Assembly (NCBI RefSeq): GCF_002001105.1 | Contig: NZ_MUNP01000068.1 | Span: 1 to 57,156, forward strand | Length of the DNA: 57,156 nucleotides | Direction: 5' to 3' | Source of the DNA: Rhodanobacter sp. C06 | GTDB lineage: Bacteria; Pseudomonadota; Gammaproteobacteria; Xanthomonadales; Rhodanobacteraceae | Translations under genes and position numbers: made by a program | Notes under the pieces: generated by a model | Told to the model about the DNA's origin: nothing | What the model saw: only the letters and a program-made list of their open reading frames with translations | The model's database searches: none | Part shown: piece after piece, positions 6,509-53,468 of the stretch | Position numbering within the stretch: the stretch's first letter is position 1 | Layout of the letters: each line of letters opens with the position of its first letter

Positions 6509-7336
6509 ATGAACGCCGCCGCCCCCTCCGACGACACGCTGATCCGCATCCGCGGCCTCACCACCGTGCTCAACGGCAAGAAGGTCTTCGACGCGCTGGA
6601 CATGGACATCCCGCGCGGCAAGGTCACCGCGATCATGGGGCCCAGCGGCACCGGCAAGACCACTCTGCTCAAGCACATCACCGGACAGATGCGCGGCGAC
6701 GCGGGACAGGTCCTGGTGGACGGGAAGAACGTGCCGGAATTGAGCCGCGAGGCGTTGTACGCGCTGCGCGAGAAGATCGGTTACCTGTTCCAGAACTCGG
6801 CGCTGCTCACCGACTTCGACGTGTTCGAGAACGTGGCTTTCCCGCTGCGCCAGCACACGAAACTGCCCGAGGTGCTGATTCGCAACATCGTGCTGACCAA
6901 GCTGCAGGCGGTGGGCCTGCGCGGCGCGGCGCCGCTGATGCCCAGCGAGCTTTCCGGCGGCATGGCACGGCGTGTGGCGCTGGCGCGGGCGATCGTGTTC
7001 GACCCGATGCTGATCCTCTATGACGAACCCTTCGTGGGCCTGGACCCGATCGCGCTGAACCAGGTGCTGAAGCTGATCCGCACGCTCAACGAGACGCTGG
7101 GCATCACCAGCGTGCTGGTGGCACACGAGCTGGAGGCGATCAAGCAGGTGGCCGACCACATCTACCTGATCGCGAACGGCAAGGTGGTGGCGCAGGGCGA
7201 TCCGCAGACCATCGCCGACGACGGCTCGCCGTGGACGCGGCAGTTCTTCGGCGGCGAGGCGGATGGCCCGGTGCCGTTCCAGTATCCGGCCGGCGACTAC
7301 GCGGAGGCACTGGGTTTCCCGGGGGGCGAGGCATGA
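6509..7336 (+). CDS. mlaF: Phospholipid ABC transporter ATP-binding protein MlaF
   Basis: A 275-residue ABC ATPase of the inner-membrane Mla complex, which moves phospholipids between the inner membrane and the periplasmic carrier MlaC. Walker A is GPSGTGKTT (residues 44-52), the signature is LSGGMARR, and Walker B is LILYDEPFVGLDP. The C-terminal tail of about 25 residues past the ATPase core (QFFGGEADGPVPF onward) is usual for MlaF, where it contacts partners. It is the first gene of mlaFEDCB, and its stop overlaps mlaE as ATGA. Confidence 0.95.
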   Translation: MNAAAPSDDTLIRIRGLTTVLNGKKVFDALDMDIPRGKVTAIMGPSGTGKTTLLKHITGQMRGDAGQVLVDGKNVPELSREALYALREKIGYLFQNSALLTDFDVFENVAFPLRQHTKLPEVLIRNIVLTKLQAVGLRGAAPLMPSELSGGMARRVALARAIVFDPMLILYDEPFVGLDPIALNQVLKLIRTLNETLGITSVLVAHELEAIKQVADHIYLIANGKVVAQGDPQTIADDGSPWTRQFFGGEADGPVPFQYPAGDYAEALGFPGGEA

Positions 7337-8106
7337 ACGCGCGCATCGAACGCGACAACATCGTGACCCAGTCGCTGGGCCAGATCGGCAATTGCGGCCT
7401 GTTCCTGCTGCAGATTCTCGCGGCAATCCCGCGCAGCCTGCGCCACGCGCGCGAGACGGTGCGCCAGTTGTGGTTCGTAGGCGCGATGAGCCTCACCATC
7501 ATCATGGTCTGCGGCCTGTTCGTGGGCATGGTGCTGTCGCTGCAGCTCTATCACGTGCTGTCGATCTTTGGCGGCACCGCGGCCACCGGCACGGTGGTGG
7601 CGATCGCGATCTACCGAGAGCTGGGGCCGGTGGTCACCGCGCTGCTGTTCGCCGGCCGCGCCGGCACCGCGATCACCGCCGAGATCGGCCTGATGCGTGC
7701 CACCGACCAGATCGCCGCGATGGAGCTGATGGCGGTCGATCCCCTGGCCTACGTAGTGGCGCCGCGCTTCCTCGCCGGGCTGATCGCGATGCCATTGCTG
7801 TGCTGCGTGTTCTGCGCACTGGGCATCTTCGGCGGCCACCTGGTCGGTGTGACTTGGCTGGGCATCGACAACGGCACGTTCTGGTCGAACATGACCGCCA
7901 CCGTCGACGTGTGGCAGGACATCATCAACGGCGTGATCTGGAAGAGCCTGGCGTTCGGCGCCGTGGTGGCGCTGATCGCGGTGTACCAGGGCTATACCGC
8001 GCCGCCCACCAGCGAAGGCGTGGCCTACGCCACCACCCGTACCGTGGTCGCCTCGTCCATCGCGATCCTGGCGCTGGACTTCGTGCTGACCGCCTTTCTG
8101 ATGTGA
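7333..8106 (+). CDS. mlaE: Phospholipid ABC transporter permease MlaE
   Basis: A 257-residue integral membrane protein of the MlaE/YrbE permease family. An amphipathic N-terminal segment is followed by about five hydrophobic stretches. Family-typical segments are GMVLSLQLYHVLSIFG, YRELGPVVTALLFAGR and GLMRATDQIAAMELMAVDP, the latter forming the coupling region to MlaF. ATG 7333 overlaps the mlaF stop. After it comes a 180-bp gap holding a structured repeat before mlaD, which interrupts an otherwise overlapping operon. Confidence 0.95.
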   Translation: MNARIERDNIVTQSLGQIGNCGLFLLQILAAIPRSLRHARETVRQLWFVGAMSLTIIMVCGLFVGMVLSLQLYHVLSIFGGTAATGTVVAIAIYRELGPVVTALLFAGRAGTAITAEIGLMRATDQIAAMELMAVDPLAYVVAPRFLAGLIAMPLLCCVFCALGIFGGHLVGVTWLGIDNGTFWSNMTATVDVWQDIINGVIWKSLAFGAVVALIAVYQGYTAPPTSEGVAYATTRTVVASSIAILALDFVLTAFLM

Positions 8107-8140
8107 CCCCATGACGACGCGTGGAAGCATCGTGGTGCTC

Positions 8141-8262
8141 GCGGCACATGGATGTGCCGCCCGCGATCAAGCACGCGAGTGCTTGATTGGCGGAGCCAAG
8201 CCCGGACATGCGCCGGGCTCGGCGACTCGAAAAACCGCCAGGAAGGCGGGTTTTCGAGATTC
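8141..8262 (+). repeat. Structured four-hairpin dispersed repeat, family 1 copy A, inside the mla operon
   Basis: About 120 nt between mlaE and mlaD that fold into consecutive hairpins. These are 8141-8160 (GCGGCAC/GTGCCGC), 8166-8187 (ATCAAGCAC/GTGCTTGAT), 8199-8219 (AGCCCGG/CCGGGCT) and 8226-8258 (14-nt arms, one mismatch, AGGAA loop). A second copy with matching architecture lies at 20447-20568. It shares the loop motif CATGGATG and the following GCCGCCCG with the second repeat family at 16481 and 19564. It codes for nothing recognisable. Confidence 0.85.
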
Positions 8263-8286
8263 CAAAAAACCTTCGAGGATGTCGCC

Positions 8287-9153
8287 GTGAGCCAGAGAAA
8301 ATCCTATGCCGTCGGCACCGGCCTGTTCATCGTGCTCGGCTTCGCCGCGCTGGCCTATCTCGCCACCCAGACCAGCTCGGTGGCGAACCGCCACCAGGGC
8401 GCCAGCTATACGGTGGACGCGCAGTTCGAGAACATCGGCCAGCTGAAGGAGCGTGCCCCGGTGAAGATCGCCGGCGTGCGCGTGGGCCAGGTCGAGTCGA
8501 TCGCGCTGGAGCCGGGCAAGTCGGTGGCGGACGTGAAGCTGGCCATCGACAAGCAGTACGCCACGATCCCCGCCGATTCGGTGGCGACGATCTTCACCAG
8601 CGGCCTGCTCGGCGACCAGTACGTGGGCATCGAGTATGGCCACGCGAAGCAGTATGTCGCCGCCGGCGGCAAGCTGGGCCTGACCCGTTCCAGCCAGCCG
8701 CTGGAGGAGATGCTCGGCAAGTTCTTCGGCGCCGGCGGTTCGGCCGATGCGATCGGCGGCAGCTACGAAGTCACCGCGCATTTCAGCAATGTGGGTTCGC
8801 TGTCGGCGGGTTCGCCGGTGAAGATGGCGGGCGTGGCGATCGGCCGCGTGCTGTCGGTGCAGGCCGAGCCGACCAAGCTGGATGCCGTGGTGACGCTGGC
8901 GATCGACAATCGCTACAACCAGATCCCTGACGATTCCGCCGCCGCGGTGTTCACCAGCGGTTTGATCGGCAGCCAGTACGTTGCGATCCAGCCCGGCGGT
9001 TCGCCGGACATGCTGAAGAACGGCGACGAGATGATCCTCACCCAGTCGGCGATGCAGCTGGAAGACCTGATCGGCAAGTTCCTGGTCAACGGTTCCGGCG
9101 ACGGCGCGAAGAAGGATGCCGGCTCGTCCACCACCCCCGCCGGCAAGCATTGA
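8287..9153 (+). CDS. mlaD: Phospholipid transport MCE protein MlaD, with two MCE units
   Basis: A 288-residue inner-membrane-anchored periplasmic protein. A GTG start at 8287 follows GAGGA by 7 nt. One N-terminal membrane helix spans about residues 8-26 (GVGTGLFIVLGFAALAYL region). Two MCE domains follow at about 40-118 and 160-238, each with V-K-[IM]-A-G-V-x-[IV]-G-x-V and [IV]FTSGL[LI]G-x-QYV. Each is followed by a similar tail (LTRSSQPLEEMLGKFF and LTQSAMQLEDLIGKFL), so the whole periplasmic unit is duplicated. E. coli MlaD is about 183 residues with one MCE domain forming a hexameric ring. Here a two-tier ring would be expected by inference. Confidence 0.93.
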   Translation: MSQRKSYAVGTGLFIVLGFAALAYLATQTSSVANRHQGASYTVDAQFENIGQLKERAPVKIAGVRVGQVESIALEPGKSVADVKLAIDKQYATIPADSVATIFTSGLLGDQYVGIEYGHAKQYVAAGGKLGLTRSSQPLEEMLGKFFGAGGSADAIGGSYEVTAHFSNVGSLSAGSPVKMAGVAIGRVLSVQAEPTKLDAVVTLAIDNRYNQIPDDSAAAVFTSGLIGSQYVAIQPGGSPDMLKNGDEMILTQSAMQLEDLIGKFLVNGSGDGAKKDAGSSTTPAGKH

Positions 9154-16480: not shown

Positions 16481-16619
16481 TTTGCGATCATCTCTGATCG
16501 CGAAAAAATCGTCCGGAACGATTTTTGACATCGCGTCAGCGATGGCCCGAAGGGCGGCCGCCAAGGATGGTGGCCGCAAGATCAAACGGGCGGCCATCCA
16601 TGGCCGCACTTTTCAATTC
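16481..16619 (-). repeat. Structured dispersed repeat, family 2, full copy
   Basis: About 139 nt between recG and the nucleoside hydrolase gene. In the minus orientation it matches the copy at 19564-19699 closely along its whole length. It contains the terminal hairpin GCGGCCATGGATGGCCGC, an internal CATCGC/GCGATG hairpin, the stem AAAAATCGT-TCCGG-ACGATTTTT (16504-16526) and an outer hairpin GCGATCA/TGATCGC. Its reading frames give only spurious peptides. Confidence 0.85.
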
Positions 16620-17926: not shown

Positions 17927-17963
17927 CGCACGGGGCAGGCCTTGGCCTGCCCCGTGCGTTTTT
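17927..17963 (+). terminator. Rho-independent terminator of rpmE2
   Basis: A 15-bp perfect stem CGCACGGGGCAGGCC with its complement and a TT loop, followed by TTTTT. It lies 39 bp after the L31 stop. Confidence 0.9.
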
Positions 17964-17967
17964 GCGC

Positions 17968-18042
17968 CCGCCATCCCTGGCAGGCGCCCTTCGGGCCATC
18001 GCTGCGCGATGTCAAAAATCGCTCCAGGCGATTTTTTGCGTC
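17968..18042 (+). repeat. Partial copy of the family 2 repeat
   Basis: The 75 nt match the distal half of the elements at 16481 and 19564. Shared blocks are CGCCCTTCGGGCCATCGCT, GCGATGTCAAAAATCGC and the stem AAAAATCGC-TCCAG-GCGATTTTT. The half with the GCGGCCATGGATGGCCGC hairpin is missing; the copy abuts the rpmE2 terminator. Confidence 0.8.
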
Positions 18043-19563: not shown

Positions 19564-19699
19564 TTGAAAAGTGCGGCCATGGATGGTCGCCCGTTTGATT
19601 CTGCGACCACCATCCTTGGCGGTCGCCCCTCGGGCCATCGCTGGCGCGATGTCAAAAATCGCTCCGGGCGATTTTTCGCGATCAGGGACGATCGCAAAG
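19564..19699 (+). repeat. Structured dispersed repeat, family 2, full copy supplying a stop codon
   Basis: About 136 nt with the same hairpin series as the copy at 16481. The stems are GCGGCCA/TGGTCGC, CATCGC/GCGATG and AAAAATCGC-TCCGG-GCGATTTTT (19654-19676). It ends in GCGATC/GATCGC (19678-19695). The last stretch read on the minus strand, TGCGATCGTCCCTGA, encodes the final CDRP-stop of the hypothetical protein at 19682-20368. Against 16481 the long stem shows a C:G to T:A compensatory change. Confidence 0.87.
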
Positions 19700-20446: not shown

Positions 20447-20568
20447 GCGGTACAGGGATATACCGCACGCGATCAAGCACGTAGGTGCATGGTCGGCGGA
20501 AGCGAGTCCGGACATGTGCCGGGCTCGCTGACTCGAACAATCGTCGGGACGACGGTTGTTCGAGATTC
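20447..20568 (+). repeat. Structured four-hairpin dispersed repeat, family 1 copy B
   Basis: This 122-nt element between mrcA and the hypothetical gene aligns end to end with 8141-8262. The first hairpin is 20447-20466 (GCGGTA/TACCGC). The last is 20532-20564, with arms CTCGAACAATCGTC and GACGGTTGTTCGAG around GGGAC. Several stem positions that differ from copy A differ on both arms, so pairing is kept. Both copies continue with ATTCC. Confidence 0.85.
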
Positions 20569-34253: not shown

Positions 34254-36085
34254 TGTCTTTATTTTTGCGCTCGTCCATGATCGCGAAGATCAAATGGGCG
34301 GCCATCCCTGGCCGCACTCTTCAAGTTTTCCGTTCGTCCCTGACCGCGGAGATCAAACGGGCGGCCATCCATGGCCGCACTCTTCAAGGGCTCATCCTGC
34401 TGCTGTGTCTGCTGCTGCCGGTGCTGGCGCACGCCGCCGGCGTGCAGGCCACGCTGGATCGCAGCAGCATGCAGCTGGGCGAGACGGTGACGCTGAACCT
34501 GCACGTCGACGGCGGCGGCAACGTGGCGATGCCCGACCTCAGTCCGCTGCAGCAGGACTTCGACATCCTCGGTCGCTCGCAGAGCAGCAGTCTCAGCATC
34601 GTCAACGGCAAGCGCAGCGCCGAGCTGGTGATCGGCGTGGTGCTGCGGCCCAAGCATGCGGGCACGCTCACGATTCCCTCGCTCACGGTGGCCGGTGCGC
34701 AGACCACGCCGCTCACGGTCGAGGTCGATGCACCGAATCCGGCCGCGGCCGCCACCATGCACAAGAGCCTGTTCATGGAGGCCGAGGTCGTGCCGCGGCG
34801 GGCCTGGGTAGGACAGCAGCTCAGCTACGTGGTGCGGCTCTACTACAGCGGCAACATCAGCAGCGGTTCGCTGGACACGCCGCAGATCGATGGCGTGCAG
34901 CTCAGCCAGGTCGGGGGCGACCTGCGCTACGACGCGGTGCGTGGCGGTCGCCAGTACCACGTGATCGAGCGGCGTTATGCGCTGGTGCCGCAGCATGCCG
35001 GCACGCTGGCGATTCCCGCGCTGGGCTTCCAGGGCGAGGCGCTGGATCCCAGCGACCCCGACAGCTTCTTCGGCGCGGGCACGCCGGTATCGGCCAGTGC
35101 GCCCGCGCTCGCGGTGCCGGTGCAGGCGGCGCCGGCGGACTGGGGCAAGTCGGCGTGGCTGCCGGCGCGCGCGCTCAGCCTCACGCTTTCCGGCTGGCCC
35201 GATGCAAACACGTCGGTGCGCGTGGGCCAGCCGATCAACCTCGTGATGAAGCTCAGCGCCACCGGCCTGCCGTTCGAGACGCTGCCGGTACTGAGCCTGC
35301 CCACGCTGCGGGGCGCCACGGTGTATCCGGACCAGCCGGCGACCGCCACCGCCAACGACGGTCCGTGGCTGGTGGGCAGCCGCCAGCGCGCATTCGCGGT
35401 GGTGCCCGAGCAGGCCGGCACGTTGACCCTCCCTGCCACCACGCTGCGCTGGTTCGACGTGGACACCGGGCAGGAACAGACCGCCGAGATTCCCGCGCAC
35501 AGCATCACCGTGCTGCCGGCAGTCGGTGCGGCGGCCGTGCCGCCCGCAGCCGGCGCAAGTGCGTCGCCCGCCTCTTCGTCGGCTCCGGCTGCGCCGGGGT
35601 CGGTTGCTGCGGCATCGTCGAACGCCATGCCGCACGATGTGATGTGGCGCTGGATCGCGCTGGCCAGCCTGCTGCTGTGGCTGCTCAGCGTGCTGGCATG
35701 GTGGCTGTGGCGTCGGCGTGCGGCGCAGGGTCCCGCCATGCTTGCAGCGGGCAGTGGGGCTGCCGAATCCGTGCGCCGTGTGCGCCAGGCTTTCCTCGCG
35801 GCGGCGCGCGGCCGCGATGCGGGGGCGCAACTGCGCGGCCTGTTGGCGTGGGCGCAGGCGGAGCGACCGGCGATCCAGCATCCCGGCGCGCTGCACGCCG
35901 CGCTGGCAGACGAGGCGCAACGGCGCGCGCTGGCCGAATTGCAGCATCGCTGCTATGGCGCCCCTGCTCCGGCGGCCGCAGGCGGCGACGATCTCGCCAA
36001 GGTTTTCAAGCACGGCTTCGCGTGGCGCGCGACAGAGAAGGCCGATGACGGCAGCTTGCCGCCGCTGTATCCGTTCAAGCTGTAG
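34253..36085 (+). CDS. batD: BatD-like protein with an N-terminus made from tandem repeats
   Basis: A 610-residue envelope protein. Residues 4-45 are encoded by two perfect-length 63-bp repeat units (IAKIKWAAIPGRTLQ then TAEIKRAAIHGRTLQ). Only after them comes a signal-like segment (LILLLCLLLPVLAHAAG, about 47-63). The rest is a BatD (oxygen tolerance) ectodomain with beta-sandwich repeats (VQATLDRSSMQLGETVTLN, GTLTIPSLTVAG, YYSGNISSGSLDTP, AFAVVPEQAGTLTLPA). A membrane helix near 465-485 and a cytoplasmic tail follow. The ATG shares its A with the previous stop; no in-frame start lies between the repeats and the signal segment. The stop TAG is part of a REP element. Confidence 0.9.
   Translation: MSLFLRSSMIAKIKWAAIPGRTLQVFRSSLTAEIKRAAIHGRTLQGLILLLCLLLPVLAHAAGVQATLDRSSMQLGETVTLNLHVDGGGNVAMPDLSPLQQDFDILGRSQSSSLSIVNGKRSAELVIGVVLRPKHAGTLTIPSLTVAGAQTTPLTVEVDAPNPAAAATMHKSLFMEAEVVPRRAWVGQQLSYVVRLYYSGNISSGSLDTPQIDGVQLSQVGGDLRYDAVRGGRQYHVIERRYALVPQHAGTLAIPALGFQGEALDPSDPDSFFGAGTPVSASAPALAVPVQAAPADWGKSAWLPARALSLTLSGWPDANTSVRVGQPINLVMKLSATGLPFETLPVLSLPTLRGATVYPDQPATATANDGPWLVGSRQRAFAVVPEQAGTLTLPATTLRWFDVDTGQEQTAEIPAHSITVLPAVGAAAVPPAAGASASPASSSAPAAPGSVAAASSNAMPHDVMWRWIALASLLLWLLSVLAWWLWRRRAAQGPAMLAAGSGAAESVRRVRQAFLAAARGRDAGAQLRGLLAWAQAERPAIQHPGALHAALADEAQRRALAELQHRCYGAPAPAAAGGDDLAKVFKHGFAWRATEKADDGSLPPLYPFKL
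34262..34387 (+). repeat. Tandem pair of 63-bp short-form repeats inside batD
   Basis: The units 34262-34324 and 34325-34387 are each exactly 63 bp. They share TCGTCC, ATGATCGCG- or CTGACCGCG-like sequence, GATCAAA, GGGCGGCCATCC and TGGCCGCACTCTTCAA. They match the two ends of the family 2 repeat with its middle removed at the same place in both units. The unit length keeps the batD frame. Confidence 0.88.
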
Positions 36086-36190: not shown

Positions 36191-36711
36191 GCTTCGTCGT
36201 CAAGCGCCGCTTGGAACACTGCGTGCATCGGTTCGCCGAAGCAGCACAGAATGAGCTCGAAATCCGGATGCGTGGCCAATTCCTCGCGCAGCGTGCCCAG
36301 CGCGACCCTGGCCGCCAGCGGTGCGGGGTAGCCGTACACGCCGCAGCTGATCGCGGGGAACGCGATGCGGCGCAAGCCGTGCTCGCGCGCGAGGCGCAGC
36401 GCGTTGCGATGGCAGCTTGCCAGCAACGCCGCCTCGCCGCGGTCGCCGCCGTGCCAGACCGGCCCCACGGTATGGATCACCCAGCGCGCCGGCAGCGCGA
36501 AGCCGGGCGTGATGCGCGCCTCGCCGGTGGGGCAGCGCACGCCGGGCGCGACGGGCGGCAGCGCCCGGCAAGCCTCCAGCAGCGCGGGGCCGGCGGCGCG
36601 GTGGATCGCGCCGTCGACTCCACCGCCGCCCAGCAAGGTCTCGTTCGCCGCGTTGACGATGGCGCCGACGGCGAGGGTAGTGATATCCGCGGTGATGACG
36701 GCAATGGGCAT
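36187..36711 (-). CDS. Macrodomain protein, O-acetyl-ADP-ribose deacetylase-like
   Basis: A 174-residue single macrodomain of the YmdB/MacroD type. ITADITTLAVGAIVNAANE and LLGGGGVDGAIHRAAG form the ADP-ribose pocket (Asn and Asp positions kept). CPTGEARITPGFALPARWVIHTVGP follows, with AFPAISCGVYGYP in the second loop. Such proteins hydrolyse O-acetyl-ADP-ribose or mono-ADP-ribose on proteins. ATG 36711 is taken because the domain begins at once. A fragment repeating its first 31 codons lies just upstream. The stop codon is part of a REP. Confidence 0.92.
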   Translation of the reverse strand: MPIAVITADITTLAVGAIVNAANETLLGGGGVDGAIHRAAGPALLEACRALPPVAPGVRCPTGEARITPGFALPARWVIHTVGPVWHGGDRGEAALLASCHRNALRLAREHGLRRIAFPAISCGVYGYPAPLAARVALGTLREELATHPDFELILCCFGEPMHAVFQAALDDEA

Positions 36712-36850
36712 GGGAGATCGAGGAAGCGGAGTCGAGTCGTTGCTAGGCTCGCGGTCCCTCGCTCGCCAAGCAACCCGGCCTGCGGCATCCTGCCTCCGGC
36801 GCTCGCCGCGGCGCGCGAGTCCACCGGACTCGCGCAAGCGCCGCTGCTTG

Positions 36851-36943
36851 CCCACCGCCGCCCAGCAAGGTCTCGTTCGCCGCGTTGACGATGGCGTCGA
36901 CGGCCAGGGCGGTGATATCGGCGGTGATGACTGAGATCAGCAT
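36851..36943 (-). pseudogene. Truncated duplicate of the macrodomain gene 5' end
   Basis: This segment encodes MLISVITADITALAVDAI and continues VNAANETLLGGGG, nearly the same as the first 31 residues of the intact gene at 36711. After GGGG the similarity ends abruptly and the frame runs into unrelated Arg/Ala-rich sequence. The first-half DNA is almost identical to 36619-36711. It looks like a partial direct duplication left in the promoter region between the macrodomain gene and the MarR gene. Confidence 0.85.
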
Positions 36944-36999
36944 GGCGACGGGCGCTTCGGCTTATGCTTGAGGCATGTGACGGCGAGGTTGCAACCATC

Positions 37000-47272: not shown

Positions 47273-47349
47273 GCAGGAGCGCACCCTGTGCGCGATCGTT
47301 CCAGCGCTTGACCGAAGCAAAAGCCATCGCGCACTGGGTGCGCTCCTAC
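47273..47349. repeat. REPIN-like inverted pair between adaptor and ATPase genes
   Basis: GCAGGAGCGCACCCTGTGCG and CGCACTGGGTGCGCTCCTAC form outer arms around a 37-nt middle part (GATCGTTCCAGCGCTTG region). The element is of the same family as 50588 and 53384. It fills most of the 119-bp gap inside the operon. Confidence 0.88.
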
Positions 47350-53196: not shown

Positions 53197-53383
53197 GACG
53201 GGACTCGGCAGAGGGGTGTTGCGCGCGGCGCAGTCTACCGGCAAGGAGCCATCCGGGACTTCGACCGCCGCCGCGCATCGTCGTGGGGGAACGGCGACAG
53301 CGTGGATGATGCAGGAGGCGCCCGCCTTGCGGTAGCGAGTCTTCCGCAAGGCAGGCTTGAGGCAGCGTCAAGGCGGGAGTCGT

Positions 53384-53460
53384 GTAGGAGCGCACCCTGG
53401 GCGCGAATGCTTTTGCTTCGATCAACGGCAGAGCATTCGCGCACAGGGTGCGCTCCTGCA
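53384..53460. repeat. REPIN-like inverted pair between the EamA and Ada genes
   Basis: GTAGGAGCGCACCCTGGGCG and CGCACAGGGTGCGCTCCTGC face each other over about 37 nt. Same family as 47273 and 50588. It lies 8 bp from the ada stop. Confidence 0.88.
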
Positions 53461-53468
53461 GGTGTCCG

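Follow-up and report, generated by a model that had tools for sequence, protein, structure and literature searches.

A dispersed four-hairpin RNA element found between mlaE and mlaD and behind many other genes: a candidate RsmA/CsrA-binding module

Introduction

Among the closest described systems to the element analysed here are two RNAs that bind RsmA. According to the excerpted text of its report (PMC4950607), RsmW has a Kd of 11.5 nM for RsmA and apparently arises by processing of the PA4570 3′UTR. RsmU, in Xanthomonas campestris, is an RNA from the 3′UTR of a comEA mRNA that also binds RsmA; in the corresponding excerpt, mutating all four of its GGA motifs left RsmA binding and the effect in place (PMC7694677). 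As these excerpts present them, each is a single 3′UTR RNA (PMC4950607, PMC7694677). For CsrA/RsmA sites, a SELEX consensus and a hexaloop are given in the available part of PMC7652899, where it is also stated that very stable stems may hinder CsrA binding.

Here we analyse a segment of the window, i.e., the whole stretch of 57,156 nucleotides of Rhodanobacter DNA, that begins at position 8141. We conclude with high confidence that it is a copy of a structured RNA element that is dispersed through the genome. In the open-access PMC literature, for the terms searched and judged by title or by the start of the abstract, no paper describing the repeat was found.

Results

The element at 8141-8262 and its second copy in the window

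The segment lies between mlaE and mlaD, as the preliminary description had placed it, the two genes scoring above the cut-offs of NF033619 and TIGR04430, respectively. This copy begins 34 nt past the mlaE stop. As claimed before, it aligns from end to end with 20447-20568 of the same window; the alignment is gapless over 122 nt, with 79% identity (window repeat family D2). The same four hairpins, denoted A to D, are predicted for both copies. The folding energy is -77.3 kcal/mol for 8141-8262 (z -9.05) and -70.5 kcal/mol for 20447-20568 (z -8.48), and in either case 0 of 200 dinucleotide shuffles were as good; the four-hairpin fold proposed earlier thus holds. The features, which include matches to a covariance model of the element (R1, see below), are as follows.

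7333..8106, + strand: mlaE, upstream of the 8141 copy (NF033619 above cut-off; bounds from a codon-usage gene caller)
8123..8271, + strand: approximate span of the sequence that is missing where genomes lack the element between mlaE and mlaD (occupied and empty mla sites compared; bounds by eye, +/- a few bases)
8141..8258, + strand: element core, hairpins A+B+C+D (R1 match of 129.4 bits, this copy being among those from which R1 was built; fold z -9.05 for 8141-8262)
8141..8160, + strand: hairpin A, with hexaloop ATGGAT at 8148-8153 and GGA at 8150-8152 (from the fold)
8161..8193, + strand: hairpin B, with a variable loop (from fold and covariation)
8195..8223, + strand: hairpin C (from fold and covariation)
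8226..8258, + strand: hairpin D, with a loop of about AGGAA at 8240-8244 and GGA at 8241-8243 (from the fold)
8287..9153, + strand: mlaD, downstream of the 8141 copy (TIGR04430 above cut-off)
20447..20564, + strand: second window copy (R1 match of 114.3 bits; antisense to both neighbour genes)
20454-20459 and 20546-20550, + strand: loops A (AGGGAT) and D (GGGAC) of the second window copy (from the sequence)

Differences between the two copies had been said to fall on both arms of the stems. The C:G to T:A change quoted for the first hairpin (GCGGC/GCCGC to GCGGT/ACCGC) is present in the sequence. The paired changes quoted for the last hairpin are mostly as given, with two exceptions: the 8141 copy has an A.G mismatch at one of the quoted positions, and the 20447 copy a T.G wobble at another.

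Size and distribution of the family

Sixteen copies, taken from this genome and its relatives, were used to build R1. In the genome searches with R1 and with a second model, R2, the best 150 first-look candidates per genome were scored (the best 24 in the search of 151 genomes of the order), and all copy and genome counts are therefore lower bounds. BLAST detects a few further copies in the genome. R1 detects at least 29 copies at 44 bits or more in the 4.14 Mb of this genome, where 32 matches are listed at E up to 1, as well as matches in at least 13 of 15 genomes of the genus (E up to 0.001) and in at least 26 of the 151 genomes of the order (E up to 1e-5). No copy was found with R1 among the best 150 first-look candidates of G012, a complete genome of the genus that carries csrA. 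In 182 kb of 58 other loci the R1 maximum was 22.9 bits, the mla copy itself apart. The family is thus far larger than the two copies from which the preliminary description had proposed a covariance-model search of the genome and its relatives.

Two sets of copies were defined. For the own genome, 44 matches in 30 loci were reduced to 29 copies, one per locus (L061-L089); the 15 dropped comprised places listed twice, overlaps on the opposite strand, weaker neighbouring matches and the partial L090. For the genus, 110 matches in 100 loci, a part of all R1 matches in the 15 genomes, gave 103 copies after seven weaker opposite-strand matches (six overlapping, one adjacent) were dropped. The two together make up the set of 132 copies used below. 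Copies of the own genome have diverged from each other, with a median pairwise identity of 0.67 and a maximum of 0.81.

By eye, many of the own-genome copies have a common tail near ATCAGGCAAGGCTCTTGCTCTGAT about 25 nt past hairpin D, which may form a weak extra hairpin. In G027, a genome of another family, contig C1 contains at 3397630-3398268 a head-to-tail array of five element copies about 130 bp apart.

Selection on the fold

In a sequence alignment of the 16 copies, 33 of 46 stem pairs are changed on both sides, compared with a mean of 15.9 in shuffles, 0 of 500 of which were as high. Among the 110 genus matches (here all 110, including the seven dropped elsewhere), double changes are seen in 46 of 46 stem pairs, with a score of 0.693 versus 0.178 when shuffled; this alignment was fitted to the model. 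Orthologous loci were compared through one copy pair per cluster, in 30 clusters (30 of the 60 clusters have a single member, and 32 gapped pairs were left out). There, 88 of 1311 stem pairs are double-changed versus 15.9 expected if the changes were independent, and 80 of these 88 are still paired; 113 stem changes are one-sided, and 58 of them leave a wobble pair. When the six mla orthologs are taken by themselves the signal is weaker, with 5 double-changed pairs versus 2.7 and 10 of 500 shuffles as high.

These data show that changes on both arms of a stem extend far beyond the two window copies, and that in the 16-copy alignment they exceed those in shuffles. Selection on a folded RNA, rather than mere copying, is thus well supported; the preliminary description had argued for selection on a folded RNA or on hairpin DNA. 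Arm-to-arm palindrome repair could add to the pairing signal, but cannot hold loop sequences.

GGA in the outer loops

Loop A is an ANGGAN hexaloop in which the second base varies (ATGGAT in 50, ACGGAT in 27 and AGGGAT in 9 of 132 copies), and loop D is of the AGGA type, with several lengths across the same copies. GGA lies inside loop A in 113 of 132 copies and inside loop D in 108 of 132, where copies without an identifiable loop (7 for A, 1 for D) were scored as misses. Counted per locus cluster, loop A contains GGA in 55 of 60 and loop D in 48 of 60, compared with 1 of 60 and 9 of 60, respectively, for the reverse-complement motif. Between orthologs GGA is retained in 29 of 29 loops A and in 20 of 25 loops D; unpaired sites are changed at 147 of 711.

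R1 itself includes the GGA loops, and R2 was therefore made with both loops masked. This loop-blind model recovers at least 25 copies in the own genome, every one of which belongs to the R1 set. Of these 25, 23 have GGA in loop A and 19 in loop D, while the middle loops, as folded, have it in 1 of 50. G041, which represents another genus of the same family, has GGA in loop A in 0 of the 23 copies listed, most of these loops being GNRA-like; among the copies listed, GGA is found in 12 of 23 loops D and in 13 of 44 middle loops. That is, GGA in accessible loops is conserved in this genus, but not so for loop A of G041.

By agreement with the published consensus, as given in the excerpt of PMC7652899, the ANGGAN loop A and the AGGA-type loops would be forms recognised by CsrA/RsmA. 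The stems of the element are stable, which counts against a reading in terms of CsrA binding. Moreover, GGA counts are by themselves weak proof, because RsmU with all four GGA mutated still bound RsmA.

Similarity to RsmW

At gathering thresholds, Rfam yields no match in the window. With E up to 1, the Rfam model of RsmW, RF02809, matches one of 16 loci scanned, namely copy L069, in an end-to-end alignment that scores 41.8 bits (E 0.0012; 16 loci, all families). The window copy at 8141 scores 22.6 bits. The gathering score of 52 bits is thus reached neither by the window copy nor by the best of the 16 other loci, and we therefore keep the element out of RF02809. Over the 15 genus genomes, with the best candidates scored, the highest RF02809 score was 24.1 bits; the same search missed the known 41.8-bit copy, and its low scores therefore carry no weight.

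Conversely, RsmW of P. aeruginosa PA7, which was located by a pattern from the RsmW consensus and scores 124.8 bits with its own model, is matched by R1. In 8 kb of the PA7 locus, R1 assigns 33.8 bits to RsmW (E 9.4e-6), with the next match at 9.5; over the whole PA7 genome R1 gave nothing among the best 150 first-look candidates, though RsmW matched in the locus. R2 likewise gives RsmW the top rank, at 27.6 bits, with filters off; RsmW was missed with the default filters. RsmW starts 8 nt past the stop of a frame of 74 codons, consistent with PA4570. By analogy, then, the element would work like RsmW in its layout and place. Of 41 relatives searched, 38 carry a csrA gene, as does this genome.

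Placement behind stop codons

Gene neighbours were taken from a codon-usage gene caller trained on this genus. Of the 132 copies, 105 are in sense with the upstream gene, and 98 of these start at most 42 nt past its stop. The other 27, which include the second window copy, are antisense to the upstream gene. Among the 131 copies with both neighbours called, 3 lie between divergent genes. Per locus cluster the count is 48 sense versus 12 antisense (60 clusters; p 3e-6). The strand bias is absent in G041, where 12 of the 23 copies listed are sense, 9 antisense and 2 uncalled. Sixty copies of five genomes of other families comprise 25 sense, 12 antisense and 23 uncalled, this last number reflecting the training of the gene caller on this genus. 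Since most copies are in sense and right past a stop, they would constitute the 3′UTR or the intercistronic spacer of the upstream transcript.

The stop codon itself is paired by an extra 5′ hairpin, with a stem of at least 10, in 24 of 98 copies, compared with 8 of 332 control stops. In the ortholog pair L068/L132 this hairpin sets TAG opposite CTA in one and TAA opposite TTA in the other. Twenty of the 25 upstream genes of the own genome were scanned with NCBIfam; 11 are named above cut-off (mlaE, infB, ffh, ppk1, panE, thyA, an oligopeptide symporter, rho, folC, tsf and rplL), 6 only below it, and 3 are without a family. Among these 20 no shared function was found, beyond the fact that several are housekeeping genes.

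Sense placement directly behind stops, upstream genes that include the much-used housekeeping genes rplL, tsf, infB, rho and ffh, and stems that are better maintained than the sequence are all consistent with a stabiliser, processing or attenuation array at 3′ ends. The element would in that case block an exonuclease, or be cut by an RNase between genes, and its GGA loops would serve another protein or none. However, the retention of GGA in the outer loops, versus the unconserved middle loops, is left unexplained by such an array, as is the match with RsmW. We regard this alternative as possible, but rather unlikely.

MITE-like relatives in other families

Four genomes of other families (G027, G045, G165 and G035) contain a form of the element with an additional 5′ hairpin and inverted ends, and many of these copies are near-identical. 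Exact 4-bp direct repeats, mostly CTAG, TTAG, TTAA or CTAA, occur at a constant offset in 13 of 20, 10 of 12, 5 of 12 and 5 of 9 copies, respectively, each offset having been chosen as the best among many. The 7 copies of G037 have no offset in common.

The direct repeats and the near-identical, recent copies in these four genomes, as well as the lack of strand bias in G041, would be expected of a MITE- or REP-like DNA parasite without RNA function, whose paired changes would result from quasipalindrome correction or from DNA hairpins that its mobility requires. We nevertheless consider this explanation improbable. In this genus the element shows a strand bias and lies close to stops; the own-genome copies are old and diverged, as their median identity indicates; the GGA of the loops is conserved, beyond the reach of arm-to-arm repair; and inspection of 4 loci revealed no transposase whose ends match.

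Specific mobilisers were also considered. A DUF772 transposase, found at 21 places in 3 of 6 genomes, was rejected; the MITE end motifs of 11-12 nt are absent from the 4 loci inspected. The genome contains two RAYT-type genes, L060 and L059. L060 is flanked on both sides by a different, GTAG-tagged repeat, GTAGGTCGGGC, and no element copy was found in the 1.4 kb read around L059. Within the sequence read, neither gene is thus flanked by the element, and membership in a REP family with a known transposase, raised in the preliminary description, was rejected.

Other repeats were noted along the way. Element copy L072 (G000 C82:15961-16078) lies about 1.45 kb from the RAYT gene L060 (C82:17532-17786). 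The window also contains a second family of hairpin repeats, at 16504-16616, 17951-18037, 19564-19676 and 34263-34388, with CCAAGGATGG, CCATCCATGG and A-rich/T-rich arms, in both orientations; one copy lies behind the recG stop, and R1 scores 11.6 bits at 16500-16607 (E 0.87). Palindromes at 53376-53467 and 47308-47349 end in GTAGGAGC, and we take them to resemble GTAG-tagged REP elements. Finally, a 94-nt direct repeat occurs at 36620-36713 and 36852-36945, 232 bp apart and with 89% identity.

The copy in the mla operon

Between mlaE and mlaD the element is present in 6 of 15 genomes of the genus and absent in 9. At the six occupied sites the GGAs of the outer loops are identical in 6 of 6. 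G010, without the element at this site, has a MlaD with 100% identity across the 287 aligned residues. A GAGGATG stretch ahead of the mlaD start lies outside the element and is kept.

The preliminary description had suggested that the element, by its position, could set the dose of MlaD, MlaC and MlaB. The occupancy of this site in six genomes and the identical outer-loop GGAs in all six would fit an operon-specific device of this kind. The suggestion is nonetheless unsupported, and we consider such a device very unlikely: the element is absent in nine genomes, one of them with that identical MlaD; it occurs behind many unrelated genes; and mlaD retains GAGGATG ahead of its start. Because of this absence, in G010 among others, and because GAGGATG is outside the element, we conclude that the mla copy is an accessory element behind mlaE, and no established mla device. 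The identical MlaD (287 residues) corresponds to C1:1693788-1694648 in G010 and to 8290-9150 in the window; recombination is possible.

A rho-independent terminator is hardly credible: the arms of hairpin D are A-rich and T-rich, but D qualifies on the - strand only, and no terminator-like site, with a hairpin followed by a U-run, is found on the + strand in 8050-8400.

Discussion

The explanation we favour, with moderate confidence, is that in this genus the element is an RsmA/CsrA-binding 3′UTR module. It builds on what is directly established here, namely the copies and their fold, the covariation in place, the conservation of GGA, the sense placement near stops, and the match with RsmW; transcription, RsmA binding, titration and effects on the host mRNAs are what we infer. 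The transcribed element would present GGA in its outer loops, A and D, and RsmA would bind both of them, as with RsmW. The mRNAs that bear the element would then titrate RsmA, or RsmA would protect or process their 3′ ends. Inverted ends and 4-bp target duplications, which copies in other families keep, make it probable that the family spread like a MITE; in this genus, many of its copies have been retained, with their stems maintained in place.

If the RsmA/CsrA-binding reading is true, many ordinary mRNAs may carry a built-in RsmA/CsrA sponge. A layout like that of RsmW, at about 30 copies per genome, would spread the titration of RsmA over many mRNAs, multiplied by transposition. That the copies jointly amount to a sponge of physiological weight is a tentative proposal, about which we are doubtful. 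Equally speculative is a broader picture, in which a transposable element took preformed RsmA/CsrA sites across a bacterial order and was domesticated here behind many stops (rplL, tsf, infB, rho, ffh and others); the summed mRNA tails would then form a distributed sponge, informing the global regulator of overall transcription. In any case, the family supplies a list of candidate RsmA ligands, along with natural variants of the loop (ANGGAN in this genus, GNRA-like in G041).

How, then, does the element compare with known systems? In four of the five other-family genomes its copies resemble MITEs in having inverted ends and 4-bp target duplications, features known from those copies and not from the window copies; in this genus, the element differs from MITEs in its strand bias and conserved loops. 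Like REP sequences associated with RAYT genes, it consists of dispersed intergenic palindromes, but the repeat unit is a different one. The TwoAYGGAY RNA motif is named for two AYGGAY sequences, which sit in loops, and loop A of the element is mostly AYGGAY; TwoAYGGAY is absent among the Rfam matches in 8050-8350 at E up to 5 and in 16 loci at E up to 1. The sponges CsrB, RsmY and RsmZ also have GGA within hairpin loops. These sponges are independent genes, whereas copies of the element are mostly located behind stop codons, and the interval 8050-8400 yielded no promoter-like site.

RsmU resembles the element in being, as its excerpted report describes it, an RsmA-binding RNA derived from a 3′UTR, with four GGA (PMC7694677). 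However, comEA is absent among the 17 upstream genes of the own genome named by NCBIfam (20 of 25 scanned). RsmW is described as one locus, unlike the element, which has about 30 copies per genome and apparently mobile relatives, and scores under 52 bits with the RsmW model. In common with RsmW, the element has four hairpins in the same order, GGA in the first and last loops, a length of about 120 nt, and a sense orientation near the stop of the upstream gene.
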